Assembly (NCBI GenBank): GCA_947172415.1
Contig: OX359193.1
Coordinates: 5,202,501 to 5,266,500 of the forward strand
Direction: 5' to 3'
Length of the DNA: 64,000 nt
DNA from: Chondrosia reniformis
Lineage: Eukaryota; Porifera; Demospongiae; Chondrillida; Chondrillidae
The notes below the pieces were generated by a model. The model was not told where the DNA came from. It saw nothing but the letters and a program-made list of their open reading frames with translations, and made no database searches. Below, one piece after another: positions 9,092 to 63,893 of this stretch. Within the stretch, counting starts at the first letter, position 1. Each line of letters starts with the position of its first letter. A program made the translations under genes and the position numbers.

Positions 9092-12000
9092 TTAGTGCAA
9101 AGTAAGTAGAACTGCTTGCATTAGTGTATACGTAGATGTGGTGGACTTGCTCACTGGTGTTCCCTCATCACTCTGGTCTTCATCTATGGCTGGTGTTCCC
9201 TCATCACCCTGGTCTTCATCAATGGCTGTCTGCCTTTGGGCTGGAGTGTGCTCAGGGGTAGTGGGAACGGAGCCAGATCCCTGTCTTGATGGAGGCCCAG
9301 AGGCATGCTTGAAGCAAACAACTATTACTGTAATATTATCAGAAGAACCTCTGGTCTTTGCTTGATCGACAATCACTTTAGGCAGTAGAGTCTTGTCACC
9401 TCCGTTCTTTACATGAACCCTCACTATATCAGCCAAGGCATCCCCATCAATGACATCCCAAACACCATCACAAGCTAGGATAAGAAAGTCTTCGCTTCCA
9501 TCACACTCTAAAGTAATAATGTCTGGTTCTCCAGTCACCGCTGGCTTGTGATCCAAGTCACCTATGGAGCGTGCTACCGATAAAATACCATCCACCCTCC
9601 AGCTACCAGCAAGCCACAGCACAGCACTTCCAGCTTCCTCTATTCTCTCTTTTTCATCCTAGACAGGACAAAGTTAACCTAGTTACTATAATTTAACACT
9701 CAGTGTCATTTATACAGGTACATACAGTTAAGAAACACATGCAAACTTATCTTAAACATACAGGATGCATGTAGCACATGAAAAATCTAAGATACCATTT
9801 TCCTACATGCTATATGCCTATTCTGTAAAAGAGCCTATAGGGGAACTAAACCTGAAGAGAGCTTTGGATGAGGATACAGGAGTCTTTTCTTCCTTCTTTT
9901 CCCTTCTTTCATCTTCTTCTCCACTGGGTCAGACAGCCGTTTCTGGGAATTCCATCCTTCATCAATGATCCTGGGAGTCTTTGTCTTTCTCTATCTTGAT
10001 CTTCTGTGAATTCTTGGCAATTACATGACAGTTAGTGCGCACACTCTTTCAGCTAAAACTGTTCATATCAAACCTAGGAACTATCTAATTACATATCTCT
10101 ACCTAGACAACATTACAAATGTTGCATTTCCTCTTAACCAGGAGTAGTCTGACCACTGGAAGAGGAAAGCAGTGGCTAGTTGGCCGTCAGTCACAAGACA
10201 GCTGGTTGGGTAAACTGACTAACTAAAGTGGCAATCACACCCAAAATACATACGTAACCTCAGCAACTGTTGGTCATATATGTACGTATGTGCAGTGATG
10301 GTCACATAGAACCTATTCATATGATACTGTTGGGACATTTAATATGTTGATATATTATTAATCATACAGGCCCAGGATTCACAATTAAGAAGAAGACAAA
10401 GACTCCCAGGGTCACTGATGAAGGGTGGAATTACCAGGAACAGCTGTCTGGCCCAGTGGAGAAGAAGGAGAAACTCTTGTATCCTCATTCAAAGCTCTCA
10501 CTAGTTTTACTCCACTATGGGCCTTTTACTCTAAAATAGGCGTGGCATGTTGGTGCATTAAATTATTCATTTACAGTATTACATGCAACAATTAATAATA
10601 TTCTGAATGAAATCTTACTACTCTGTCAGGTTTATGTGGAAACATGACAGGCACAGGTTGCCCTTTTCTAATCAACAGGGCTTGAGAATCACCAGCCCAA
10701 CCGATTGTTAACTGGTTCTCCCTGGTAAAGGCACACACACAAGTAGTCCCACTCTTCCATCGCTAGAGAAGAAAAAAAGGAAAAAATGGTAACCTATCAC
10801 TGACATACGTATGTTTACTAACTATACCTCTGCCCTTGCTTTGGCACAGAAATCTCTGTCAGTTTGAAGAAAAGCATCTTTCATTGCTTTCTCAATGTCG
10901 GTGAGGAACTGTTTGTGTCGGGTCAGATTACATATAAGGTTGACAGATGCAAAGTCAGCTGCATCAATGCCACTGTGACCATCAAACACTCCATAGAAAC
11001 ACTGCTCTGGCATATCCTAGGCAACAATTGAAATGTACAGTAGCTGTTGCATTAGGTAGAGGAGCTGAAATAGAGACTGACATTGATGGCCAGTGTGGTT
11101 CATAGATGCATGAGAATCTTTCCTTCAAAATAAAACCAACTAACATACGTATAGGTATACCTACACTAATCACATGGTGAATTAAGCACCAGGCACCAGG
11201 AGGGAGGTGTTTAGAGGGAGCCAGGCACCAGGAGGGACGGTGTTTAGAGGGAGCCAGGCACCAGGAGGGACGGTGTTTAGAGGGAGCCAGGCACCAGGAG
11301 GGACAGTGTTTAGAGGGAGCCAGGCACCAGGAGGGAGGTGTTTAGAGGGAGCCAGGTACCAGGAGGGACGGTGCTTAGAGGGAGCCAGGTACCAGGAGGG
11401 ATGGTGCTTAGAGGGAGCCAGGCACCAGGAGGGATGGTGCTTAGAGGGAGCCAGGTACCAGGAGGGATGGTGCTTAGAGGGAGCCAGGTACCAGGAGGGA
11501 CGGTGTTTAGAGGGAGCCAGGTACCAGGAGGGACGGTGTTTAGAGGGAGCCAGGCACCAGGAGGGATGGTGCTTAGAGGGAGCCAGGCACCAGGAGGGAT
11601 GGTGCTTAGAGGGAGCCAGGTACCAGGAGGGATGGTGCTTAGAGGGAGCCAGGCACCAGGAGGGACGGTGTTTAGAGGGAGCCAGGCACCAGGAGGGAGG
11701 GTGTTTAGAGGGAGCCAGGTACCAGGAGGGATGGTGCTTAGAGGGAGCCAGGTACCAGGAGGGACGGTGTTTAGAGGGAGCCAGGTACCAGGAGGGAGGG
11801 TGTTTAGAGGGAGCCAGGTACCAGGAGGGACGGTGTTTAGAGGGAGCCAGGTACCAGGAGGGACGGTGTTTAGAGGGAGCCAGGTACCAGGAGGGACGGT
11901 GTTTAGAGGGAGCCAGGTACCAGGAGGGATGGTGCTTAGAGGGAGCCAGGTACCAGGAGGGATGGTGTTTAGAGGGAGCCAGGTACCAGGAGGAAGGGTG

Positions 12001-13843
12001 TTTAGAGGGAGCCAGGTACCAGGAGGGAGGTGTTTAGTGGAGCAATGTAAATAGCTTGCTCACAAACAAAGGCAATACTAGCAAATGTTCCATTAAGTAT
12101 GAACTTTGAAAACTCACTTTTAACTGAAATAAAGCATTAACATCGGGACATATCAAATGTCTGTCCTCCATTTTCCTCCTTGAATTCTTCACAGAGCAAT
12201 GGTTACTCATTGGACTGTTGAGAGAAGAATTACTCAAGGGATTTTCCTTATCCCAAGCAATGCAGACATGATGAATAGCATCAACAATGCACTTAGTTAA
12301 GTCTTTACCATGAAAATCTGTAAAAGAAAGAAAATATCAGCTAACGCACTCAAAGGCATTTGTGGCAAATTTTGAAGACTCAATCTATAATGAAATTAAA
12401 ACCTAGCTCCAATAGCCAAGATTGAATTGATTTGAGTAACCAACGATACTCAGTTACTTGCATATATTAATGTAAGTTAAGTACAACAGTCTATACATGG
12501 TACAAAATAGTTCAGATTACAGATCTTGTTAATTCTTCTATCAAAGCTGTCAGGAACATAAAATTAGTAATTAGAAGTTTAGTTACGTATGTACGTACTT
12601 TACTTTATGCAAACACTAATATCCACAAGGTATCTACAATCCCTTATTCAGTTGTACATGCCTGTACTAACAAAGCCACCCCCTTGAAAGCTTCTTACAT
12701 TTGTATTGCTCAGCTGATCTGTTTCTCTCTTCGTCAGCTGGTATCTCCCCGCTTTGGATTGGCAGGTCTAGGTTGACATTGCTCTTGATTCTGGATAATA
12801 CTGCTCCAGTTATAGGATACAGTAGCACACTGGGACACTCACTGCAAAGCAAACAAACATAATAGTACTTCCACTGTACCTACGCTTGGTGCTTGCAGCT
12901 AGTCCCACCACTTGTCAATTTAAGCAAGGACACTCCATATTCATATGTTACTGTAGATCAGATAATCTGTTTCAGGTACAGGTCTAATATACAGTGTATC
13001 ATCATCACTAGGAAGCCTTTAATAGTTGACATGAAAAGACTTTTATGAATAGCTAGGAAATCCAGTAGAATCACATACACTAGACAATTGAGGATTATCA
13101 ATAGGGATTTAATAAGGATGTCTTAATAGGATTTAAGGAAATTGAAATTGTACGTAGTTGCAAACTATAATCACAGACACGGCTTTAGTGATACTTTCAG
13201 ATTATTGCATGAAGGCATACAAATCTAGATGTTTTTAGACAATTTGATTTCAATCAAAAGTGCTGCATGAGTAGTCTTTTGTAAATGACTGTAGTTCACT
13301 ATCTATATAGACTGTTTGTATAGGGAGGCTAGCCCTACCAAATGTAGAACCTATTTGCATAGAGAAGATAGCCCAAGAAAAGATCGGTTACTATTACCAT
13401 AAACATCCAACTGAGGTGATATATTGCCACACTGGAGATATATATATAGTACATACATACACTATCTTGTGTCCTCAAGGTTGCACACGTTTTTGCAAAA
13501 GGGCATCCTTTACACACTACACACAAACTTAAGATATAACATACCACAGTAGTCCTAACAATAGTCATGCAATTAAACTACTAATTTGTGTACACATTCT
13601 TTGATTGCAAAACATCCCAATTACTTAAGTACCACTAGTGCTAGCTAGGAATCAAACACATGCTCACCACTTAGCTAGGTAAGACTTGCAGACACTTATG
13701 ACTTGACCTTCCAATTCAAATTCCCATACTCTAGTTACTGCACCGACTATGGGTAATGGGTTTTCCGAGCCAAGATCTGTCCGATTGGATAGAGTGGTTA
13801 AAAATTCCCTTGCTTTTGTGTCAACATCACATTGTTCTGCCAT
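9092..13843 (-). CDS. PPM1F: PPM1F/PPM1E-like PP2C serine/threonine phosphatase
   Basis: Six exons join in phase to about 471 residues (human PPM1F is of similar length): 13843-13668, 12841-12699, 12317-12118, 11016-10828, 10762-10622, 9658-9092. PP2C motifs appear in order: KMEDRH, FYGVFDGHSGIDAA (metal-binding Asp), GWAGDSQALL, RVDGILSVARSIGD, LILACDGVWDVID, and GSSDNITVIVV. The Asp residues that bind Mg/Mn are present. DGHSG replaces the commoner DGHGG. Family members (POPX phosphatases) remove activating phosphates from kinases such as PAK and CaMK. The C-terminal tail is Ser/Thr/Pro rich with two near-identical 'AIDEDQ.DEGTP' repeats. The start MAEQ at 13843 is preferred over an upstream in-frame ATG at 13876. 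It shares a short divergent promoter with ATP6V0B. Confidence 0.92.
9770..10015 (+). repeat. Dispersed repeat family A, copy 3
   Basis: Near-identical to copy 2 over the first 190 bp. It lies in the last intron of the phosphatase gene and continues to a GATCTTCTGTGAATTCTTGGC end. Confidence 0.85.
10385..10550 (-). repeat. Dispersed repeat family A, copy 4
   Basis: Reverse copy in the same intron as copy 3, about 370 bp away, so the two form a widely spaced inverted pair. Confidence 0.8.
11188..12043. repeat. 33-bp minisatellite, about 26 copies
   Basis: Units of the form GAGCCAGGTACCAGGAGGGA + CGGTGTTTAGAGG vary at a few sites (GGCACC/GGTACC, GACGG/GATGG/GAGGG, GTTT/GCTT). It fills most of the phosphatase intron between exons 12317-12118 and 11016-10828. 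As 33 is a multiple of three, it gives long open frames that are not genes. Confidence 0.95.
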
Positions 13844-19682: not shown

Positions 19683-20584
19683 TACAAGTTTGTTAATCAA
19701 AAGTTCATCATTGATCGAGTTGTCCATGTAATAGTATATTTGAAACCAATCGATGGTTAACTATTTCACATTATATTTTGGACTTATGAACCCAATATAG
19801 CATTGGCTTACCTTAAAGCAGTGGTATAACATGTCAGAGGATCATTAGATTTAGCTCTGGCTTATTTGAACTTGAACACCTGGTGACCAGGTCATCTGGA
19901 GTTCAAAGAGCTCAAAGGTCACCTCAGATACCTTTCCTTGTATTGAATATAGAGTGTTAAAAAAAGAAATTGAAGAAATTTTACCCTGTTGTGGTTAAAA
20001 GTAATAATTTGGTGCTATAATGGGTGGGAGTGTAACTTATTAAGCACTTAGGGCCATGAGGTAATTAAATTAAGGATCTTGCAACTCAACGGGCTACATA
20101 TAAGGCGAGGCAGTACAGCTTAAACCATCATATCTATTATCTTTGGTTATGTAGGATTTGTGACATGGTCTATAATCAATCAATTGCCCTTGACAATTCT
20201 ACCATTTTGGGACTCAAATGAAATATGGCTGCCTTGAAATTTGATTTGTATCTCAAGGGTTTCTGTATTGCAATTTAAAAGTTTAAATGATTGGAGTCAT
20301 ATTAACTACTTAGGTACAGAGTGCAGATATGTAGATTTTTAATATTGGAAAGCCACACTGTCTGCTACTCTAGATCTACTATTTCAAATTATCTAATTGC
20401 AACTGGAAGTTTCCTTATAAACATTCCTTAACAACTTTAGTATATATCTTATTGCCTTCTGCTACATATATGTATGGTGCCCATGCATGATTGTCCAATA
20501 ATTATATACATTCTATGATAAGGACTACATACATATGTAGTTAAGCACACATGGAAATCTTTGTATACACACACACATATATAT

Positions 20585-20747
20585 CTTTACTTCGTATATA
20601 TGAGAATGACACTAACCAAAGTTTGAAATTATATAACCAAATTTGCTGTATGATACCACTGATGAAGACAACTGAATAGTTGTCGAAACGTTTGGTTATA
20701 TAATTTCAAACTTTGGTTAGTGTCGCTCTCATATATACGGAGTAAAG
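20585..20747. mobile_element. 163-bp foldback element carrying a hammerhead-like core
   Basis: Two 57-nt inverted arms (20585-20641 and 20691-20747) match almost fully. Each runs from CTTTAC...GTATATATGAGA to TATATAACCAAA. The 49 nt between them contains CTGATGA and GAAAC. The layout matches the inverted ends of the Penelope-like element at 44656-45591, so this is probably a non-autonomous relative. Confidence 0.75.
20649..20702 (+). ncRNA. Hammerhead ribozyme-like motif 1
   Basis: Core CUGAUGA (20659-20665), stem II GACAACT/AGTTGTC (7 bp, GAAT loop), GAAA (20685-20688), then C-GUU. Stem I pairs ACCA (20655-20658) with UGGU (20693-20696), then a 2x2 internal loop, then four more pairs (GUAU-like with UAUA). 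Stem III is minimal (ACGU), as in hammerheads thought to act as dimers. One extra A lies between the core and stem II, which could weaken activity. Structure read by eye; no activity data. Confidence 0.5.
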
Positions 20748-22279
20748 ATGGATTGTCCTAACCACTCAGGTCTATATAAACATATAGGTATATACATATG
20801 TACATATATACGTACATACATACACAAGCTTCCCAATAAAAGTATAAAATTATTGTACTCCTGTGAAACAAGTTGTATTTTATGTATTATAATTGTTAGT
20901 ATTTTCCTATTTACTTGTGACAGTCCATTCTAGCAAGAGGTACGTACATCTACATGTATCTAAACTGACTAAAAAACTTTATTTTTATGTTGATGTGATC
21001 AGCAAAATTTCAGAGCCACTTTTTAAATGTGAAATTTAACTTGATTTATTCAGTTTAGTTCTTCTAAATGTTTCTAATTAAGCACTTAACTATATATACA
21101 CATGTAAATGTATATATGTATAAAAAAGGAGTAAAATTTTAATCGTAAGTTTCAAATTACAGTAACACATATAATATATATTGTGAACATATTTGTTAAT
21201 TGAACTGTACAGGATGTATGGACATGCTAGTGTTACTCGATTCCCTTATTCATCTGACCTCTTAGTCCTAATGGTTACTTTTCATGCCACAAGTAGGAAA
21301 GGCATGATCCTGGGATTCATTTATGGTTAATTTGAGAACAAAAGGAGGTGCTGCAATCAAAGAACAGTGTAAAACAATTTCAACAATTGTAGAATTTCAT
21401 TGGCTTATCCTCAGGGTGACAAAAGCACCTGGCAACAGTTAATGCTGAGAGATTACCAATGAAATGAGTAACAATCTATGGGAATTTTCAGCGGATATTT
21501 GTGCCTTATTTGGCTGTACATTCCCAATTATGTACATCTGCAAATATTTCATAACCTACATACGTAATTAGAGTAGATGTTTGAAACATCAAAAATATTT
21601 GTACATAGGTGTGCCTGTCCTTTATAAAGTGAGAATCATATACTACACATAATTGTAGGATTCCTGAGGATAACCTTCTGTGTCTCTAGGGCATGTCATC
21701 CACAAGGGTTCATGTTTGTAATATGAGACGCTCCTTAGTGTGTTCAAAAATGTGGCTCTAGGCAACCAGAAAAAGCTATGTACATTGTTCACATGTGAAT
21801 TATTTCCTTTAAAGCTCACTGTCATGCGCTTTATATATATATGGACTGACCCCTAGGACTTTACATATATATACAGTAGATAATGGAAAATTTCAAGAAT
21901 TTTTAAATTTTACATTTTAGCTGCAGGGAATTGAATGTGTTGCTTCTTATATACACAAATATAATGCAATACAAGACACCCAATCATCAATTTTATGTAA
22001 AGTGACTACTACCAATTCATACATGCATCTTACATTTTACCTATTTAAACTGGCCATAGTTAAAGGGCTGGCAGTAGCTGCTAAATGTATTGGGGGAGGG
22101 GTACTTGGGAGGTGCTTGGGAGGTGCTTAGGAGTGCACAATCTAAATTGCATGATTTCTTTACTTTTTTGTACATACAGTACATATATATATATATATAT
22201 ATATGAAATGATATGGCTTATTTGTTGCGTTCATTATAAGATCAGTGAATTTCATATGAGCATCAGCAACAGTAACGTT

Positions 22280-22330
22280 ATACAAGATATTGAACATTTC
22301 GACTGTAAAGGTCTTCATCAGCAAAAGTAT
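22280..22330 (-). ncRNA. Hammerhead ribozyme-like motif 2 (degenerate)
   Basis: On the minus strand: CTGATGA (22321-22315), A, GACC...GTC, GAAA (22300-22297), U-GUU. Stem I keeps a 3-bp pairing (UUG before the core with CAA after the GUU). Stem II is only about 3 bp. Likely a decayed relative of motif 1. Confidence 0.35.
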
Positions 22331-38400: not shown

Positions 38401-41400
38401 ATTAAATACTAAATGAGAATAACATATTTTAGTATTCAATTACAGCCTCTTGTTGAATTGGGGAGTCTGTACAATATTTGAAGGCATGAGAAGACAATGA
38501 CGCAAATATTTCATGGTCCCTTGAGGTATGGCACAACAGGTGACGTATGTCTGACCTAGCGACCAAAGATTGCTAATTTGAGACTTCACTCAAAACAGAG
38601 AAGGTATAGATCTAATTATGCACGATAATGAATTTATATAATATGATAATGAATGTTTATCAGTCCGTTGTTGAATGTAATGGGTGCAATGTAGAATCCT
38701 TACATATTAATCTGACGAAAAGCAGTCCTCACTACAATGCACACACCACATGTTACACAATGTTGAGTACTCCCATGCACCACATGTGACACAATGTTGA
38801 GTACTCCCATGCACCACATGTTACACAATGTTGAGTAATCCCATGCACCACATGTGACACAATGTTGAGTAATCACATGCACCACATGTGACACAATGTT
38901 GAGTACTCCCATGCACCACATGTGACACAATGTTGAGTACTCCCATGCACCACATGTGACACAATGTTGAGTACTCCCATGCACCACATGTGACACAATG
39001 TTGAGTACTCCCATGCACCACATGTGACACCATGTTGAGTACTCCCATGCACCACATGTGACACAATGTTGAGTACTCCCATGCACCACATGTGACACAA
39101 TGTTGAGTACTCCCATGCACCACATGTGACACAATGTTGAGTACTCCCATGCACCACATGTGACACAATGTTGAGTACTCCCATGCACCACATGTGACAC
39201 AATGTTGAGTACTCCCATGCACCACATGTGACACAATGTTGAGTACTCCCATGCACCACATGTGACACCATGTTGAGTACTCCCATGCACCACATGTGAC
39301 ACAATGTTGAGTACTCCCATGCACCACATGTGACACAATGTTGAGTACTCCCATGCACCACATGTGACACAATGTTGAGTACTCCCATGCACCACATGTA
39401 TGTAATAACAAATAAACACCTATGTATGTTGGTATACTCTATTTAAAACATGCACATCCAAATTACACACCTTTCGCCTGCAATTCTTCTAGCCTGTATC
39501 AAAACAAGGAATGGAGAGACAGAATATAGCTCAACAATGTATTTATAACATACAATTGGAGCAGGTATATAATGTCTTGCAAAGCAGAGCACGATTAATT
39601 ACTGCTTACAGTTCTGTGAGGAGGAGGTCTAGGCTCTTTCTCTTTCACCAGCTGTGAGAAAAGAATGGAAAAGAACATTTACATAAAGCTACCATTTACA
39701 CAATGCTTTGTTTGTCCATTAACTTATTCACAGTTGACATCACAATCAACCAATACTAAATTAAATATAGCTATCATAATTCATGTTATCACATTCTGAA
39801 ACCTGCAAATGAACACTTATTACATACACCTAGTTTTCTATATAGTTTGTTGCATCATTGATCTATTACATTTTTATATAAATGACATGGGTGTATCACT
39901 TCCAGTCATCTACGACAGACAGTCTGCAGAAACACCTAACAAGCAAAACAACTTTTGATAAGATTAGCCAGCCCATCCGGGCACTTGACGATAAGGAAAG
40001 ACGACCATCTGTTGAAACATGTACAGGATATTAATATGGTCAAATCACATTTTCGCACAACTAAGGCTTAGATACGTATTTGGTAAGAATGAATGAACTA
40101 GGTCCTGGCTTCAGAGGAAATTTTGTATCATTCTCCCTCCCCGGAACAGCCACACCAAAAATTAGAAATGGTTTGTCAAGATTTTTCTAAATTGTCGTAT
40201 TTACATTTAACCACATTTTTTCACTGAAACTAAAGCTATTACTTGTTTACAACCGCAAACTGACTGAAGCAAGCTACAAAGTTAAGCAAACAGAGAATGG
40301 TAACTAGTTTAATGGGCAACTAAGTCATAAAACCATGGTCTTTTTGTTTTTTTTACAACGTCAACTTCCAGTATAAAAGCTCCATGGGCAAAAATATTAT
40401 ACTTTGAACTCACTCAAAGTAGAGACTGGACTACTATTATGAGAAGATATTTATCCACAGCTGCTGGCTACACATCAGGGTACTGTTACCACAGGTAGCC
40501 AATAATGGGTCTTGGTTTAGAGACAGAAACCTATTCACTTCTAAGAATCACAATTAAATAGAGGTATGTCTAGACAGTGCAGAATCCAACTATTGGGGAG
40601 ACGCAATCAACAGGTGTGGAAAAGATAGCTTGAGGCCATGTACAGCCATACATATGAGAGACTCCACACTAAAGGACACACCACCACAAGCTTTGGAAAG
40701 AAGCCATGCTCTACTGGTGTAGCAGCGTACAGACTCACTTACATGACCATATATAGAAACAAGTACACAGAACTTGAGAATACAACAAATTTCAGATTTA
40801 ATGCATACATTTGACATAAGGTAATTAGAACTGACACAAGCGATAGTTCCAACCATTGTTCCACCAGATGATATAACTAAATTTATAATATATCTTTTCT
40901 GGATAGTTGTCTATGACATACGCATGTACTGGTACATAGCATACGTTTGGACTAACAACAACTGAACTCCTCAGTTATCAAATCTAGCAACTTAGTAGTG
41001 GCAATTCTAAGGAGGGTGATAAACAAAAAACAGCTTGGTGGCTTAAAAAAGGTGATTAGAAGTTAGGAATATTGATTCTTTGACAATTAAGTCCATCCAA
41101 TTGTTGTATTGAACTGCACAGGCAGGCTTATGGTATTAAATGGCAAAAAAGAGAAAAAAGGATGACATACGGGTACACTAAAAAAGGTTCCTTATAGAGC
41201 ATATAGTATATCTTTTGTATTTTAGAGCATCTAGAGACGCAGTTAGGAGTTTCTGCATCTCTAATGCTCAACTCAAGCTAACACCAACCAAATAAGAAGT
41301 TAATTATATACGTATATCACTAGTTAGGTTCACAAAACATACACTAAACATCTATAAAATAGGCCCTATACTGTAGTATGCTGTACACATAGCAATTGTA

Positions 41401-44400
41401 ATCCCCAAACATTAGCGGAATTCATTTTTAGCTGCAATATCCATATTGAGTGTCCTCCTATTTAATATTATATTACAAGGGGCCATGGCTATATACAGTA
41501 CAACACCCACCAGGTACAAACACCTTTTTTATAACATAGCACATCCTAAATATAGTGAAAATTCACTAAATGTAACTTACATACATAGCACTATAAAGAG
41601 ATGTTTACAGAATGCAAGCACCTTCAAAAATACTTATAACAAAAACGATATTTAGTTATCGTTTAAGGCAAAGGATATAGCTACCCTAATGTCCTTATTT
41701 TAAGATTAGATCTTATTATTCCCTTAAATTCCAAATACATAACACATTTTCTATATATCAATAAAATTCAGAGTAGTTGAAATAAATAATAATGAGACCA
41801 AATAATAATTTGTTTGGAAAAGTCAATTGAAGTAAAGTAAGTGATAGATTGGGTCAAAAAAGTCATACAGAACAGCTACACAATCATACATTGACAAGAT
41901 ACAATAGATATAGCCAAACAAGAAATACATTCGAAGCAAGAGAAAGGCCAATAAGTACAAGTATTATGTAGAGTCACTGGGTATTAGCTTTTGCTTCTTC
42001 TACGTCCATTAATTCTGACCTTTTGTTTGGACAATGGGGTTTGACCATCAGAGGCCACTACCAGTGGAATCTTTGGGAGCTAAAGAGAGAAACAAACAAC
42101 TGAAAACTGAAGTCTGTACAATGCACAAGAATACAGCAATACATCATCAGTTGTGTGCAGTGTCTACATATCAGTTGTGTGCAGTGTCTATGTATCAGTT
42201 GTGTGCAGTGTCTATGTATCAGTTGTGTGCAGTGTCTATGTATCAGTTGTGTGCAGTGTCTACGTATCAGTTGTGTGCAGTGTCTATGTATCAGTTGTGT
42301 GCAGTGTCTACATATCAGTTGTGTGCAGTGTCTACATATCAGTTGTGTGCAGTGTCTACATATCAGTTGTGTGCAGTGTCTACATATCAGTTGTGTGCAG
42401 TGTCTACATATCAGTTGTGTGCAGTGTCTACATATCAGTTGTGTGCAGTGTCTACATATCAGTTGTGTGCAGTGTCTACATATCAGTTGTGTGCAGTGTC
42501 TACATATCAGTTGTGTGCAGTGTCTACATATCAGTTGTGTGCAGTGTCTACATATCAGTTGTGTGCAGTGTCTACATATCAGTTGTGTGCAGTGTCTACA
42601 TATCAGTTGTGTGCAGTGTCTACATATCAGTTGTGTGCAGTGTCTACATATCAGTTGTGTGCAGTGTCTATGTATCAGTTGTGTGCAGTGTCTACATATC
42701 AGTTGTGTGCAGTGTCTACATATCAGTTGTGTGCAGTGTCTATGTATCAGTTGTGTGCAGTGTCTACATATCAGTTGTGTGCAGTGTCTATGTATCAGTT
42801 GTGTGCAGTGTCTACATATCAGTTGTGTGCAGTGTCTACATATCAGTTGTGTGTAGTGTCTACATACGTCAGGCCCGTTGGAAGCATTTTAGAAGTGCTG
42901 CGGCTATAGAAATGTTTTTTGAAATGCACACGATTTTAAAAGTAGATTTCAACTTTAACGATTTCATGTTTCAATGACATCATAATTATAGTATATGTTG
43001 CAATCAAAACATGGCCGAATAGTACGGGACAATTTGATTATAGGCAATAGTTGTTTTTCAGACCTCAAGAGAGCTGTAAAGGTAAGAAAAAAATTTCAAG
43101 GAAGGAGGTCGAAAAGTGGTGAGGCCTAAGCCGCTACAGTTCGGACAGCCTTGTACGTATAAACATATGAGGAGCATGGAAAAGTACTAATAAGATTTAT
43201 GAACATATAGTAACATCAAATGCTGACAATATTAGACTTTCATTAATCCAAGCATCTCATTTATTTACTGATAATAAATCATTAATGTGGAATCCAACCC
43301 AGCAGATACTCCTATATTGTGACCACATGCAGTGATTATATGAACATAACAGGCATATAAAGTGTCAATGTACGGATACATACGTACGTACAAGGTCTTC
43401 TGATAAAATGGACATCTAGGTTTTGTAGCTAATCAATACATATTTGTATACGTATGTACATGGTTTTAAGACCTATGTACGTACCTCATTGCATTTACCG
43501 GGTGCCTACAGTAGTAGCCAACGCTAATGGCCTCCCCATTCTAAATAGCCATACTTGACGTGGCTTGACTATTGCTACAAATACCCATTAAAATGAGCAG
43601 TAATCAACTGTGAATATGCGTATTCATACCTACCTTCAACTCATGTGACTCTCCATGAAGTGACTTCCAAGCCTATTGGGAAGAGAAAAAGATACAACAG
43701 AGATGACAAATGAATATACGTAGCCTACATGTACATACGCACTCTATATTTTGGAAACTAAAGAGAGAACAATGTAAGAAATGGTTATGTCCCCCTCATT
43801 TTGACTGTGTTGGTAGCTTTGAATCTAAATCATAACCAGAGTAATTGTCAAATACATAACTATAAGGCATTGTACAAGTAACTAGCAATGGCCTTCAAAG
43901 TACATAGATGACTTAAGACCAGACCCACCAGTAGGTACATATATACGCAGGTTCAGACTTATAACGTAACTTTGAAAACCTTAATGAGACACTTATATAT
44001 ACATACATACGTATGTAAATTTTGGATCAATCAAGAGGAAGACAAGAATTAGCAGTGTAGGGAGACAAGGATTAGTTGAGTAGGGAGACAAGGATTAGTT
44101 GAGTAGGGAGACAAGGATCAGTCGAGTAGGGAGACAAGGATCAGTTGAGTAGGGAGACAAGGATTAGTTGAGTAGGGAGACAAGGATTAGTTGAGTAGGG
44201 AGACAAGGATTAGTTGAGTAGGGAGACAAGGATCAGTCAAGTAGGGAGACAAGGATCAGTCGAGTAGGGAGACAAGGATCAGTCGAGTAGGGAGACAAGG
44301 ATTAGTTGAGTAGGGAGACAAGGATCAGTCGAGTAGGGAGACAAGGATCAGTCGAGTAGGGAGACAAGGATTAGTTGAGTAGGGAGACAAGGATCAGTCG

Positions 44401-47400
44401 AGTAGGGAGACAAGGATCAGTCGAGTAGGGAGACAAGGATCAGTTGAGTAGGGAGACAAGGATCAGTCGAGTAGGGAGGAGACAAGGATCAATTGAGTAG
44501 GGAGGAGACAAGGATTAATACAATGGGCAGATACACTATTGCACAACTTGAGAGAACACTGATAGAACGTATTCACTGAAGCAATGTACGTATGATGTGG
44601 CCCTCTAAAAGGCAGCTACGTACATATGTATACATACATATACGTACGTAAATGTGATAGGAAATTATTCAAGCAATCAGCAACACTTCTTTAAAACAAA
44701 GATTAAGACGTTTCGACCTGTGGGTCTTCATTCATTAGAACCATAAAGATAGGAACCATCATGTGTCTCAAGAGGAGAGTGGAAGGAATTTGCAAGGGAA
44801 ATGATCTAAGGAAGGAACTTCAACATCTAACAGCCACGTTTACAGCCAACGGCTACCCCAAAGGACTAATACACAAGGTTTTAACCAAGAGAAGGAGAAA
44901 AAGGGTGGAAGAACACCGGAAGGAGGACCAACGGATTTTGTGTTTACCCTATGTTAAAGGTCTTAGTGAAACCATACGTACAACGAAAATGTCACCCCTC
45001 AACATTAAACTGGTACATACATAAGTCTTTGAACACACTCCAATCTATACTAACCAAACTGAAGACACCAAAATGCCAAGAAAAGAGAGCAGGTGTTATC
45101 TCCTTGCCAATGTGGAGAGATATAGATAGGGGAAACATGCAAGACACTACCACAAAGAATGCCAGAGCATAAGAGAGCAGTACAGAGGGCAGATATATGA
45201 ACAACTCCTTAGCCACACATGTGCAAAGCAGAGTACATGACAAATCCTGGGACAAGGTCACTGTGATTGAAGGTGAACAAGACAGATTGAGAAGGAAGAT
45301 TAAGGAGGCAATCCCATCCAATCCACAAAATGCCTGAACTTGGATTAGGGATTAATTCTGGATCCGATATGGAATGACATTCTGTAGTTCACCATATTCA
45401 ATTTTTTTATATTTTAGCCTCTTTCGCCGCCATTTTTCACAATACATCATTATTGAACACACGTCACACCTGTTCTATTTAAACTGGCTTTGTAACCTCC
45501 TCATCATTCTAACTGATGAAGACCCACGGGTCGAAACGTCTTAATCTTTGTTTTAAAGAAGTGTTGCGGATTGCTCAAATAATTTCCTATCATAATGATC
45601 GCAACAAGTACCCCTTTCATTTCGTATAAAAGATATCCATAAGAATGTAACAAGGATGTTTCTTTTCCCCTCCTTGATATACATACTTACACATTATGAT
45701 AAATTTTGGAAATGCAAGAAAGACGCTTACATTATACATGAATATAATCTAAACACTGTATTTCCTGTAGACTCAGTTGACATGCTTATGACAAATACTG
45801 TAGATTGACTACTTTCCTAGACTTACTTCTTAGGGAAAACCTATAGAGCTTTGGATGAGGATACAATTTCATATCGACTTTTCCTCTTTTTGCACTGGGA
45901 TGGAACTGCACTTTTTGGGAACTTCACCCCTTATCAGTGACTTTGAGTAACATTGACTTAAACACATGTCCTTCAGTTTAAAGTCCTTAGCTCTAGATAG
46001 GTACATACGTACGTACGTAGATAGATCTAGGGGTTTCAGCTGTTGCATAAGAACATACTTATGTATGTAATAATATATTGGGCTCTATGGTAAGGTATTG
46101 GTATTGTACTTGCCTCATTCAACATGCCTGTGACGATTTCCTGTACTTTTGATTCGTCAATCCTGTCATGACTGCCATTGTTTTGTACATTGCCAGCAGC
46201 TTGATAAAACATCTAAAAGAGCATATCTCATGTAACCAGCCAAAAATAACATACATACATATGTACATGCACATAACTGCAGTAGGATGCAAAAAGTTCC
46301 CGCTTTGACTATGTACGTACATACAACAGCCATTCAATGAACAACCGTTTTTTAAAAGACAGTACTCGCATATTTACACAACCGTAAGTAACATACTGTC
46401 AACAGTTTGGCTATTGTTATACGCATAAAAACAGTAGAAGAGACTTATGAACGTAAATGCCATAACAAAAGCTAGACATCTTATGCTGGAAGAATATAGG
46501 ACTTTGTAGACGACAGTGGCACTTTCATAGGGCGCATTAAGTTGGTAAGTATGTACATTTTACGCTGAATAGAAGAAAACAGTCGCTTTGTTGCACGGTA
46601 GCCTATTAAAACAAAATATATAAAGAATGGAAATATTATGACAATGATTCTGCTGTTGTAGTAAGCAAAACGGGAAACGTTTGTGCATGCTACTGTAAAT
46701 ATACACTTACATACGTATGTATGTAGGTCTTCATCATAGACAGGGAGAGGTAAATAAATGTATGTATGCACAGTTACTGGTTTGATCTAACCTATGCAGA
46801 TGATCATCCGATACAACTGAATAGTTCGCATTGGTATAAGAGGGAAACATGAAGGGGGAGCATTGCTGTGGTTATTGTAGCTAGTGGAAGAGCATTGGTT
46901 GTCAAAACCAGCTGTCGTGGGTTCAATTATCAGCTATTATTTTACTTTAGTGTTTAACCCTCTAAATGCTAATGTATGTATGTACTTATGATGAAATGAG
47001 TACATAGTTGTGGTTTGTTTATCACGTTCATTATTCATACCTCTGTTATACCATATTACCATGTACAAGGCTCCTTGACTGAGCTACACACATACATTTA
47101 CACTACAAACTAAACTCATTTTCTCTTATGACACACACGAACATACATAGGTGTATGCACTCTAGTCAAGGAGCTATTCTAAATTGACCCAACCTATTTC
47201 CTATGCATAAATACTATTCTCAAGACATTAGCAACTCGGAGAGACACTTTGGCAGAGCATTCTTAAGATGGCTCATACAATATACGTAGCTGTAATCCAA
47301 CCTGCAAGTAATCATTCACTAGTTGATAAAGCTCCTTGTTAAAAGATGGCTGCAAAAGCAACTTCATCATCTGAAGTGATTGATTTACTCCCCTACAGAA

Positions 47401-61100: not shown

Positions 61101-63893
61101 GCAATTGTAGTAGCTCCCTTGCCTCTCAAATGGTTCCAGCTGAGGTTCAGGCTCTGTAGGGCTTCGCTGTCAGCTGGATATACAGTACATAGATATGGTA
61201 CTACACATCAGTACAATTATTAACAACTGTATTGTATCTGTTGCTATATACGAAATACAGTGTTCAACAACAGAAATTGTGAGCACCCTGTACACATATA
61301 TACATGTACGTATATATATATATATATATATATGTACATACGTACCTATTATCTACTAACCTATAGCTGGTCCTATTAGTATGCCAGTCTCTTGACCAAA
61401 TTCATTGTGACTGAGATCCAATTCCTGGAGTCTTATATTCCCCTAAATATGTACGTACATACATACTGTATGTATGTGTGATCCAAATAGAGGTACGTAC
61501 ATACCATATTAGTCCGTATAGAAGCCAGGCTCGAATAGAAGCCCAGCTCGAATTGAAGCTGGGTCAAAAATGACTGGAACAAAATAGAAGCCGGGGCTTC
61601 TATGCGGACAAATACGGTAAATACGAAGTGATAAGGATTGTTTGTTGCGATCATGATGAAATCCAGAGGTATTATTGAGCAACAGCAACATAAATTATTG
61701 ATAATAGAACGTTTTAACCCGTATTTCAAAATGACATCATCATTTCACACCTCTCATCCAACATCCAACTTCTATATAAACCCCAACCATTCCTCATTTT
61801 TCATATTTGCTGATGAAGACCTATGGGTTGAAATGTTCTATTATCAATAATTTATGTTGCTGTTGCTAATACCTCTGGATTTCATAAGTACGTACGTACA
61901 TATGTATATATGTTTATACATAAGTAGATTACTGGAGTACAGTTTGGCTACATACATATAATTAAAGTACATACGTACATATGCGGAGAAAATTGTTGAG
62001 CCATTAAAACATACTACAAGGTTTGCTCATGATTCGATTACAATTATGAACATACATGTACATACATACGTACGTATATACGTACATATGCTACTCCAGC
62101 AGTAAGGACCTACATACTTTGATGAATTCAGCCACTGCAGGTCCCACAGAATCATTGAATCCATTCCCTATAACAAAAGGCACATTCATACATACGTATG
62201 TACGTACATACGTACATGCACCTACCTATAGGTACAAACAGTTAACACACATACGTATGTACATTATATTTGGAAGCAGTCACATTTCGTATATACTATA
62301 TTACGTACCAGCGTACGTATATGTACATACATAAGTCTGTATCTTTATTGTACGTATGTACATATATAATATAGGTACAGTGGTTTGTGTATGTTAGAAC
62401 TCACCTCTAAGGAAGCAATGGGTAATGCAACTATTAACTAGAAGCATTTCATTCATGGCTAGAGCTCCAGCTGGGCCCATCACATTATCTGACAAGTCTA
62501 GATGTGTCACAAAGCAATTTTCCTTCAACATGTCTGCTATGGCTACAGCTCCCTCAGTCCCCAGACCGTTATCACTGAGGTTTAGGTGCGTCACACAGGC
62601 ATTAGACTGGTACAAACAATACAAATGTAGCAAATAACCTCATTAACAATGGCAACTGCAGGATATTAATACCTAGGTGAGGCTGTGATGGTACTGAAAT
62701 GTAATACTGTGGAACACATTACATCACACAGCAGCCATTTGCAGTAAACCATTGGATCATATACGTGGATTGACATAGACATATGTAAGGCATCATGTAT
62801 GTAAAATAGTTAATAGGGAAGCACAATTCAAATATGTTCCAGTGGAGCAGAAGAAGACACTATTACAATAATCTTACATATTTTAACTTTATATTTATTG
62901 CTATATTTTGGTGTTTTAATAGTAACTGAATCAGATAGTGGCTTCCCCAAGTATAAGAAGTATAATTCATTCATGCATACGCATCTAAAGCTCTCACTAG
63001 GTTTACTTCCCTATAGTTACTATAGAATGGATGTAGTATGTAGGAAAATGATGTTTTAGATTATTCATGCAGTAATGGGAGAGAAACAACAGTGTCTTTC
63101 CACTACTGTACTCATAGTCATGTCAGATTGTCATGTCATGTCATGTCAAGCTTTCATCCTATACTGATAGATACTCACAGCCATTGATATGGCTATGGCC
63201 TTGGCTCCTTTGGAGCCTAATCCATGGTGCTTCAGGTCAACCTTGCTTGTCACAAGACTGTTTAGGAAAGCGGACACTGGTACTATGCCCATCACCTTGC
63301 AAGCCTGCAAATACACCTTCCTGCCTGTTGCATCGTATTCCTCTTTCTCATCTAACAGATGTACACATACATATATTCATGAACACAGAAGCACTGTTAG
63401 TCCATCCTCAATATACATACATACATACATACATAGATAACATGTAGCAAAGCATGGGCAGACTCTTCAGAAACTGATGAACTATAATACATAATTAGTA
63501 TTTGCAGTAAAATAGTGTGCAGAAAACTATTTTGCTTTTATAATATGCGTTAATTAATGAAAACCGCTGCCTTGCCTTCAATCTCCAGATCAGTATCCCA
63601 TCCACCATCACTCTCTTCCTCACTGGGTTTTCTTTCTGCCGTCTCTTCGAGTAGATCATTATCACCTTCCGTATCATCACTATTACCTTGTTGTCCAGTC
63701 TCCTTTTCTTGAGTGTCTACATCCTCAACTTCATCACCTTCAACTGGCTGGATCGATATGAAATAAATTAATAATAAATTAGAAAAAAATCAAGTGTATA
63801 ATAAAACGTAGTAGGGCTTACGTCTGGAGTTAGTATATTTGCGACTTCTTCTGTATTTCTAAGATCATCTTTCCGTTCCGAATCGTCGGCCAT
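58108..63893 (-). CDS. LRRC74: LRRC74-like leucine-rich repeat (RNI-type) protein
   Basis: Eleven exons fit in phase: 63893-63822, 63747-63576, 63351-63179, 62606-62405, 62167-62118, about 61446-61362, 61174-60971, 60598-60519, about 60396-60289, about 60038-59854 and 58178-58108. The N-terminus is acidic (EEVANILTPD, ERKPSEEESDGGWDTDLEIE), then YLQACKVMGIVPVSAFLNSL and LKHHGLGSKGAKAIAIS, which match LRRC74A/B. RNI-type repeats follow (THLNLSDNGLGTEGAVAIAD, THLDLSDNVMGPAGALAMN, KKLNLSHNGFDNPGGTAVAD, QNRISNEGAKGLAKAL). The tail is Lys/Pro rich and ends Gln/Ser rich (MVQQQSQLSNESQQDQSQ). Function in animals is unclear. One intron uses a GC donor. The last intron hosts a Tigger-like element. Confidence 0.86.
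58518..59054 (-). pseudogene. Tigger/CENPB-type transposase C-terminal fragment
   Basis: Open 178-codon frame. It begins LVEEETIRKCFRKAGI, the motif that follows the DDE domain in pogo/Tigger transposases, then an acidic segment (EDEEVSDNEEQEEQEDMDD) and helices typical of the family tail (ANEFLEEVQRFLETRG). The helix-turn-helix DNA-binding part and the catalytic DDE domain are missing, so it cannot act as a transposase. Confidence 0.82.
59042..59418 (+). pseudogene. HIRAN-like domain fragment, frameshifted
   Basis: Reading starts in HVVEFQSYVRSYHAYVD and continues WTPIAGQALVLKREPTNSHD, VHAVAVYYDNYVVGHIPYNIA, FLRRDVNKGFAEVTGDKVNRG. This matches HIRAN-like proteins that are abundant in cnidarian and sponge genomes. 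After about 59300 the match moves to another frame (AGYGLEVPCTYRLYGPKAHV) and ends at TAG 59416-59418. HIRAN domains bind DNA 3' ends in helicase/repair proteins. Here it is a decayed cargo or second ORF of the Tigger-like element. Confidence 0.68.
61503..61619. mobile_element. Short MITE-like inverted repeat element
   Basis: Ends ATTAGTCCGTATAGAAGCC and its near complement (GGCTTCTATGCGGACAAAT), with internal GAAGC[C/T]-type repeats, 117 bp. In an LRRC74 intron. Confidence 0.7.
61656..61885. mobile_element. 230-bp foldback element with hammerhead-like core
   Basis: Inverted arms ATGAAATCCAGAGGTATTA...ATAATAGAAC (61656 on) and complement ending 61885. Near the right arm lies CTGATGA (61810-61816), A, GACC/GGTT stem, GAAA (61830-61833), U-GUU. 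Same architecture as the 20585 element. Stem I pairing is weak here. Confidence 0.68.
62830..63070 (-). repeat. Dispersed repeat family A, copy 12
   Basis: Reverse copy in an LRRC74 intron: CCAGTGGAGCAGAAG, CATCTAAAGCTCTCACTAGG, TTACTTCCCTATAG, GTATGTAGGAAAATGATG. An AT-rich insert of about 90 bp separates the first two blocks. Confidence 0.7.

Follow-up and report, generated by a model that had tools for sequence, protein, structure and literature searches.

A probable minimal Penelope-like twin insertion with a type I hammerhead motif in the sponge Chondrosia reniformis

We analyzed a 64,000-nt stretch of the Chondrosia reniformis genome (hereafter the window; C5:5202501-5266500) that contains a short inverted repeat enclosing a hammerhead ribozyme motif. 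This locus is very probably one old, minimal insertion of a Penelope-like element (PLE), in which two 5'-truncated copies of the 3' end of the element are joined 5' to 5'. The initial annotation of the window had described a distinct foldback element at 20585-20747. An inverted repeat is indeed present, but its arms reach two bases further on each side, and each arm reads as a copy of a PLE 3' end, the two being inverted relative to one another, instead of as a terminus of such an element. Genome searches covered 117.38 Mb on 15 contigs; loci are cited below by L numbers and contigs by C numbers.

Results

Architecture of the locus

The features of the locus are as follows (window coordinates).

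20583-20641 / 20691-20749: left arm and right arm of the inverted repeat, 59 nt each, with a 49-nt centre
20583..20641, (-): left PLE retrocopy, inverted, with a short 3' end (inverted repeat, partner alignment, end class)
20643..20778, (+): right PLE retrocopy with a long 3' end (matches to other copies, end class)
20649..20702, (+): minimal type I hammerhead (sequence, covariance model R1, covariation in other families)
20748..20778, (+): tail, on the right end only, reading as the first codons of the PLE open reading frame (ORF)
20575..20581, no strand: possible target-site duplication remnant ACATATA, left copy (weak, AT-rich)
20780..20786, no strand: possible target-site duplication remnant ACATATA, right copy (weak, AT-rich)

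The anatomy of the locus is directly visible. The arms are complementary at 56 of 59 positions (95%). The left retrocopy has its outer end at 20583, without a tail, and its inner (5') end falls within 2 nt of the position corresponding to the predicted cleavage point, 20692|20693. The right retrocopy is 5'-truncated approximately 16 nt upstream of the hammerhead core, and its tail reads ATG GAT TGT CCT AAC CAC TCA GGT CTA TAT A, with the ATG 55 nt downstream of the predicted cut site. The locus holds a pseudo-long terminal repeat (pseudo-LTR) with an inverted head-to-head copy and a tail on one end, the left end being short and the right end long. In another pair (L061, 1350-1530), the 5' end of the partner lies exactly at the predicted cleavage point, as in the left arm of the window copy.

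Orientation, end classes, and target duplications of PLE pairs

The hammerhead pattern CTGATGAN{4,24}CGAAACGT occurred 217 + 204 times in the genome, as against 0 + 2 for the same pattern read backwards. Among the first 100 of these 421 sites listed, neighbouring sites no more than 6 kb apart were arranged (-,+), i.e., 5' to 5', in 14 of 16 cases; two of these 14 pairs represent a single insertion that is present in duplicate. Two forms of outer end were directly observable among the pairs: a short form that stops at or just before the ATG, and a long form that adds approximately 30 nt of the early PLE ORF. Ends were scored by a script against tail exemplars, an end with no tail scoring at least 15 being called short, and the short-end stop was confirmed by eye. 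By this scoring, for which the tail exemplars of L009, L079, L097, and L118 were taken from those same pairs, one long and one short end were found in 39 of 43 inverted pairs and two long ends in none, with four pairs ambiguous.

These pairs fall into three sets. The first set (30 pairs) comprised the (-,+) neighbours minus one duplicate, partners found by alignment, and five pairs recognized by eye (L005, L017, L081, L085, and L088); exactly one end was long in 27, both in none, and three had no assignable long end. One long end was present in every pair of the second set (7/7), six of which came from PLE gene matches and one from the window. The third set consisted of six loci with inverted matches that were at first not taken as pairs. 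The script assigned one long end to all six, of which five were counted; in the L061 pair on +, the partner is long, but the other copy is cut before the short stop, approximately 10 nt past the cleavage point. L064 has no partner. The ambiguous pairs are L067, L098, and L088, in which no long end was found, and L061 on the + strand; by eye, L088 has a deleted tail, with a score of 14 under the threshold of 15. L083 (a copy of L081) and L107/L108 (a copy of L103) were excluded as duplicated insertions.

The two ends within one sponge insertion are not independent: with tails placed at random on each end at a probability of one half, a single long end in 39 of 39 resolved pairs would hardly be expected. 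Target duplications of 10-15 bp, no more than 4 nt from both ends, were likewise observed directly in 10 of 16 pairs tested (7/10 and 3/6). The asymmetry of the ends suggests paired priming of two target ends at two template sites.

Termination of copies at the cleavage point by way of a cleaved template RNA was considered and rejected. Only 2 of 13 partners without a complete hammerhead, all read by eye (L001, L005, L011, L017, L050, L061 (+), L061 (-), L063, L066, L068, L069, L081, and L085), end within 2 nt of that point (L001 and L061 on +); the other partner ends lie about -22 to +47 from it, and two are too few for a cluster.

Hammerhead structure and covariation

Every element of the hammerhead architecture given in the initial annotation was located in the sequence. 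The core CUGAUGA (20659-20665) is followed by one extra A (20666), a perfect 7-bp stem II (20667-20673/20678-20684) with the loop GAAU, GAAA (20685-20688), and CGUU (20689-20692). Stem I consists of 4 bp (20655-20658/20693-20696), a 2x2 internal loop, and a further 4 bp (20649-20652/20699-20702). The features of a minimal type I hammerhead are thus all found in the window, namely CUGANGA, stem II, GAAA, a UH cleavage triplet, and a stem I open at both ends. The ribozyme had been placed between the arms: this holds for the core and stem II, which lie in the centre, but the 3' strand of stem I lies inside the right arm. The base predicted to carry a 5'-OH after cleavage had been given as 20692 and should be 20693, given cleavage at 20692|20693.

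There is, as proposed, no space for a normal stem III, which is without a loop, and the self-complementary ACGU after GAAA is present and could pair in a dimer; its A-C could find a G-U partner only in a second molecule. In six pairs picked by PLE protein and not by motif, 12 of 12 ends carried ACGU, and loci from the exact-pattern search were not counted here because the pattern itself required ACGU. The extra A before stem II, noted originally as a deviation, is nearly class-wide: an extra base between A9 and stem II occurs in all 53 classified copies (A in 51, T in 1, G in 1), these being the ones that form at least three of four stem II pairs among 56 distinct core-letter sequences. According to passages of one study, the core of a viroid hammerhead is weakened by an extra nucleotide (PMC11014351).

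Folded alone, 20640-20710 was modestly more stable than shuffled sequences (z of -2.5, with 4 of 200 shuffles equally good), and its minimum-energy fold also pairs core bases. The full hairpin (20583-20749) had a predicted energy of -90.6 kcal/mol, compared with -76.8 when the hammerhead stems were forced, i.e., approximately 13.8 worse. The right arm holds the 3' strand of stem I, so that hairpin and ribozyme compete; because the arms compete for this strand, self-cleavage of the window copy from its own transcript is predicted to be unlikely, and the copy is most likely inert.

We constructed a covariance model (R1) from 27 hammerheads of other families in the genome, including none of the window's family; the sequences were picked by core letters and not by stems, and many are related. 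R1 gave a match of 42.9 bits to the window copy, at 20653-20698 (E of 1.4e-9, a rough value from a short calibration), and none of the 26 family-A loci searched had a motif score above that of the window copy (L001). A background of 112,779 bases from 30 RVT_1 loci (L020-L049) yielded one partial match of 28.2 bits (L026) and four partial matches of 14.3 bits. The two 4-bp helices had 88.9% of cells paired, as against 77.3% in shuffled alignments, and the R1 alignment contained 35 double-change cells, compared with 11.0 in shuffles. Both stems covary, and the covariation is strong.

The 33-mer of the window copy, with up to three mismatches, was found at 6 + 4 places including itself (0 + 0 in the backwards control), which gives 10 genome places for the window's family. 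Core position 7 may vary in known hammerheads. When this position was freed (the CTGANGA form), the matches rose to 1196, as against 85, leaving about 1,100 such motifs above background in the genome.

Linkage to PLE genes

The connection with Penelope elements suggested initially is supported by hammerheads just downstream of PLE gene matches in the genome. Scoring 90 of 1380 candidates gave at least 18 PLE matches. Of the 18 listed, which lie on chromosomes 1-3, 11 are followed on the same strand by a pattern hammerhead at a distance of 143-275 nt (ten found with the exact pattern and one with core position 7 freed); the remaining seven have 44-46% identity to the query. The six ends of three other pairs, which were chosen by protein (44-45% identity), all carry CTGAGGA or CTGAAGA, and one has AAAA for GAAA. 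L106 (C3:4585880-4589740) consists of head-to-head PLE copies, each half with a 472-aa frame, and a hammerhead begins 209 nt past each match. Its + half matched RVT_1 (5.6e-6) and GIY-YIG (1.7e-3), both just under the Pfam curated cut-off; despite these scores, a single ORF with reverse transcriptase and GIY-YIG endonuclease is clear in sister families such as this one. The reverse transcriptase (RT) of L065 was tried as a PLE probe and showed no significant similarity to the L106 PLE frame (best E of 0.36), and that search was not used.

L088, a pair of the same ribozyme family as the window copy, encloses PLE RT/endonuclease (EN) remains (6e-15); it is decayed and divergent (77-79% identical). 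Given this pair, the proposal of a separate non-autonomous element is not supported, and a truncated PLE is the best reading of the window copy. Upstream of the core, copies of the window's family have no more than approximately 120 nt in common, as judged from four queries run on 18 loci.

Other PLE sequences and repeats

A second, larger PLE head-to-head pair lies in the window at 44701-45546, with a short left end and a long right end. The further PLE features of the window are as follows.

44701-44737, (-): hammerhead of the second pair, 29.7 bits
45507-45546, (+): hammerhead of the second pair, 51 bits
44746-45185: RT/EN remains of the second pair
61804-61843, (+): PLE hammerhead, 40.3 bits; short end by eye
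22287-22327, (-): PLE hammerhead, 38.6 bits; long end by eye

In the genome, several PLE pairs on C3, C2, C8, and C5 (e.g., L102-L106, L111, L117, and L122) are embedded in ACTAGTACATACA-like microsatellites, which may be favoured target sites. L103 (C3:3.03 Mb) and L107/L108 (C3:4.36 Mb) apparently carry a single PLE insertion together with its flanks, one inverted relative to the other, which looks like a large inverted duplication or an assembly effect. At L051, hammerheads at 1501 and 1738 (C1:574146 and 574383) are on the same strand 237 nt apart, a tandem order unlike the usual inverted one. Long frames in several reading frames run over tandem minisatellite-like repeats in the window (11182-12059, 38700-39442, and 42019-42977) and are likely not genes.

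Discussion

Model of the insertion and points against it

A minimal PLE twin insertion with the hammerhead of its class is ordinary in kind and well founded. In the course that we propose for it, the PLE protein would cut both target strands, and each 3'-OH would prime reverse transcription on PLE RNA near the ORF start. One cDNA would start at the ORF start, giving the short end, and the other approximately 30 nt into the ORF, giving the long end and its tail. Both would run toward the 5' end of the RNA and stop early, and joining of their ends would produce the head-to-head inverted pair. At the window locus, the right cDNA would have passed through the pseudo-LTR hammerhead and carried it along, and the left would have ended close to the cleavage point. 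The parent PLE would have its hammerhead downstream of the endonuclease gene and ahead of the next ORF start, presumably in a tandem parent RNA. This hammerhead would probably cleave only with another copy, through an ACGU:ACGU stem III, or with the PLE protein, and cleavage would cut a multimeric RNA into units.

Several observations weigh against this interpretation. A clear duplication was lacking in 6 of the 16 pairs tested, where the flanks were simple repeats or ambiguous, and the duplication at the window copy is only 7 bp long and AT-rich. One of five covariation measures was not above its control: pairs with a double change numbered 6, compared with 4.6, a value reached by 76 of 500 shuffles. 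Among the 36 family-A loci put to tblastn (flanks of up to 1.5 kb), PLE coding sequence was found in L088 only, and the link between the window's family and PLE genes thus depends on one decayed, divergent pair. Finally, the Rfam covariance search that had been proposed as a check gave no hammerhead match in the window, even at E values up to 10. Of eight hammerheads from sister families (six loci), however, Rfam matched only three at E values up to 5, each at 20.2 bits against a gathering score of 48.5, and the Rfam models are therefore poor at the PLE hammerhead class.

Alternative explanations

The inverted pair may have arisen by self-priming on one template, and not by priming on both target strands. 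Passages of a study of Adineta vaga propose this route for the palindromic head-to-head junctions of its Penelope elements (PMC3846280). We consider it unlikely here, since copying of an arm alone does not explain why, in 39 of 43 pairs, one end lies at the ORF start and the other approximately 30 nt further, nor why two long ends never occur together in a pair; the 10-15 bp target duplications also fit two primed target ends.

It is considerably less probable that the locus is a metazoan retrozyme. Elements of this kind are short and non-autonomous, are built of tandem repeats, carry a type I hammerhead, and pass through a circular RNA. The short size and the type I hammerhead would suit such an element, and animal retrozyme RNAs of approximately 170-400 nt are known, but the relevant passages of the same source describe retrozymes as tandemly repeated, their hammerheads having helices of canonical size and contacts between loops (PMC7229834). 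The window copy is a single head-to-head pair without stem III, whose 3' end is a PLE ORF start; tandem repeats of 150-450 bp with a canonical hammerhead are not found in it, and PLE coding remains are present in L088.

The long, near-perfect arms flanking a short centre would be expected of a true foldback or miniature inverted-repeat (MITE)-like DNA transposon that captured a hammerhead and moved as a hairpin. We regard this as highly improbable, since the repeat covers only part of the sequence, the outer arm ends differ by the one-sided tail, and these ends are ORF-start positions and not symmetric termini; sister copies, moreover, include minimal pairs at one extreme and pairs that carry RT/EN genes at the other. 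Least credible is a chance hammerhead resemblance or a microRNA-like hairpin: most Rfam matches here (E up to 10) are microRNA precursors, all of them below gathering scores and rejected as hairpin artefacts of the kind that any long hairpin is expected to give, and chance is opposed by the 421 pattern sites against 2, by the strong covariation, and by the variation at position 7 (1196 against 85).

Comparison with known PLEs

The truncated PLE twin insertion can be compared with three known systems. Cervera and de la Pena in 2014, and Lunse, Weinberg and Breaker in 2017, are said to have described minimal type I hammerheads in PLEs. That PLE hammerheads are thought to cleave as dimers is already stated in passages of a review, and the hammerheads described there and those of the sponge both have the hammerhead core, a missing or minimal stem III, a pseudo-LTR position, and possible action as dimers (PMC7761336). 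The sponge hammerheads differ from the known ones in their host. The extra A between A9 and stem II, present in 51 of 53 sponge copies, may be a second difference.

In Anolis carolinensis, the protein of the Penelope/Poseidon element PAc cleaves both strands of the target and extends each of them; reverse transcription begins at internal sites of the RNA, early in the ORF, and the tail is the stretch between two such sites (PMC11167929). PAc and the sponge PLE are alike in having a GIY-YIG EN with an RT, a pseudo-LTR hammerhead, an internal start in the early ORF, and a tail. The PAc hammerhead cleaves only with the protein, and its cleavage is not needed for insertion in vitro (PMC11167929). 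Stem II marks the beginning of the PAc ORF, which places the cut site 26 bp within the ORF, and reverse transcription most often starts 111-118 bp into it (PMC11167929); in the sponge, by contrast, the ATG of the window copy is downstream of the cut site, and the ends of this copy are at the ATG and approximately 30 nt further. The PAc strands showed no difference of start site in vitro (PMC11167929), whereas each resolved sponge insertion has one end of each kind.

As far as the passages on Penelope of Adineta vaga go, these elements have an inverted pseudo-LTR, head-to-head order, and an optional tail on one inverted pseudo-LTR, with self-priming suggested (PMC3846280). The sponge pairs resemble them in the inverted pseudo-LTR, the head-to-head order, and the one-sided tail, which is 31 bp long in Adineta, and the Adineta elements have target duplications of 8-10 bp (PMC3846280). 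Short ends in Chondrosia reach no further than the ATG, and a tail is present on one end in all 39 resolved pairs.

Implications

The hammerhead extends the known PLE class to Chondrosia reniformis. Among the titles and abstract openings listed by searches of the open-licence literature, there was no report of a PLE hammerhead in any sponge, Chondrosia included. A passage from a review describes the role of PLE hammerheads, and their activity in vivo, as still mysterious (PMC7761336). A compact genome with about 1,100 motifs and many well-preserved twin insertions is a good data set for the poorly understood integration of PLEs, and it is equally useful for asking what the hammerhead does.

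The asymmetry of the ends is the most interesting point of the analysis. We give an even chance to the proposal that PLE insertion is obligatorily paired, the two strand ends always priming at two fixed template positions, the ORF start and approximately 30 nt inside it, and never both at the inner site. If so, the tail would mark which strand primed at which site, and the genome would preserve a record of how target-primed synthesis on the two strands is ordered and arranged in space, although these strands look alike in bulk in vitro (PMC11167929).
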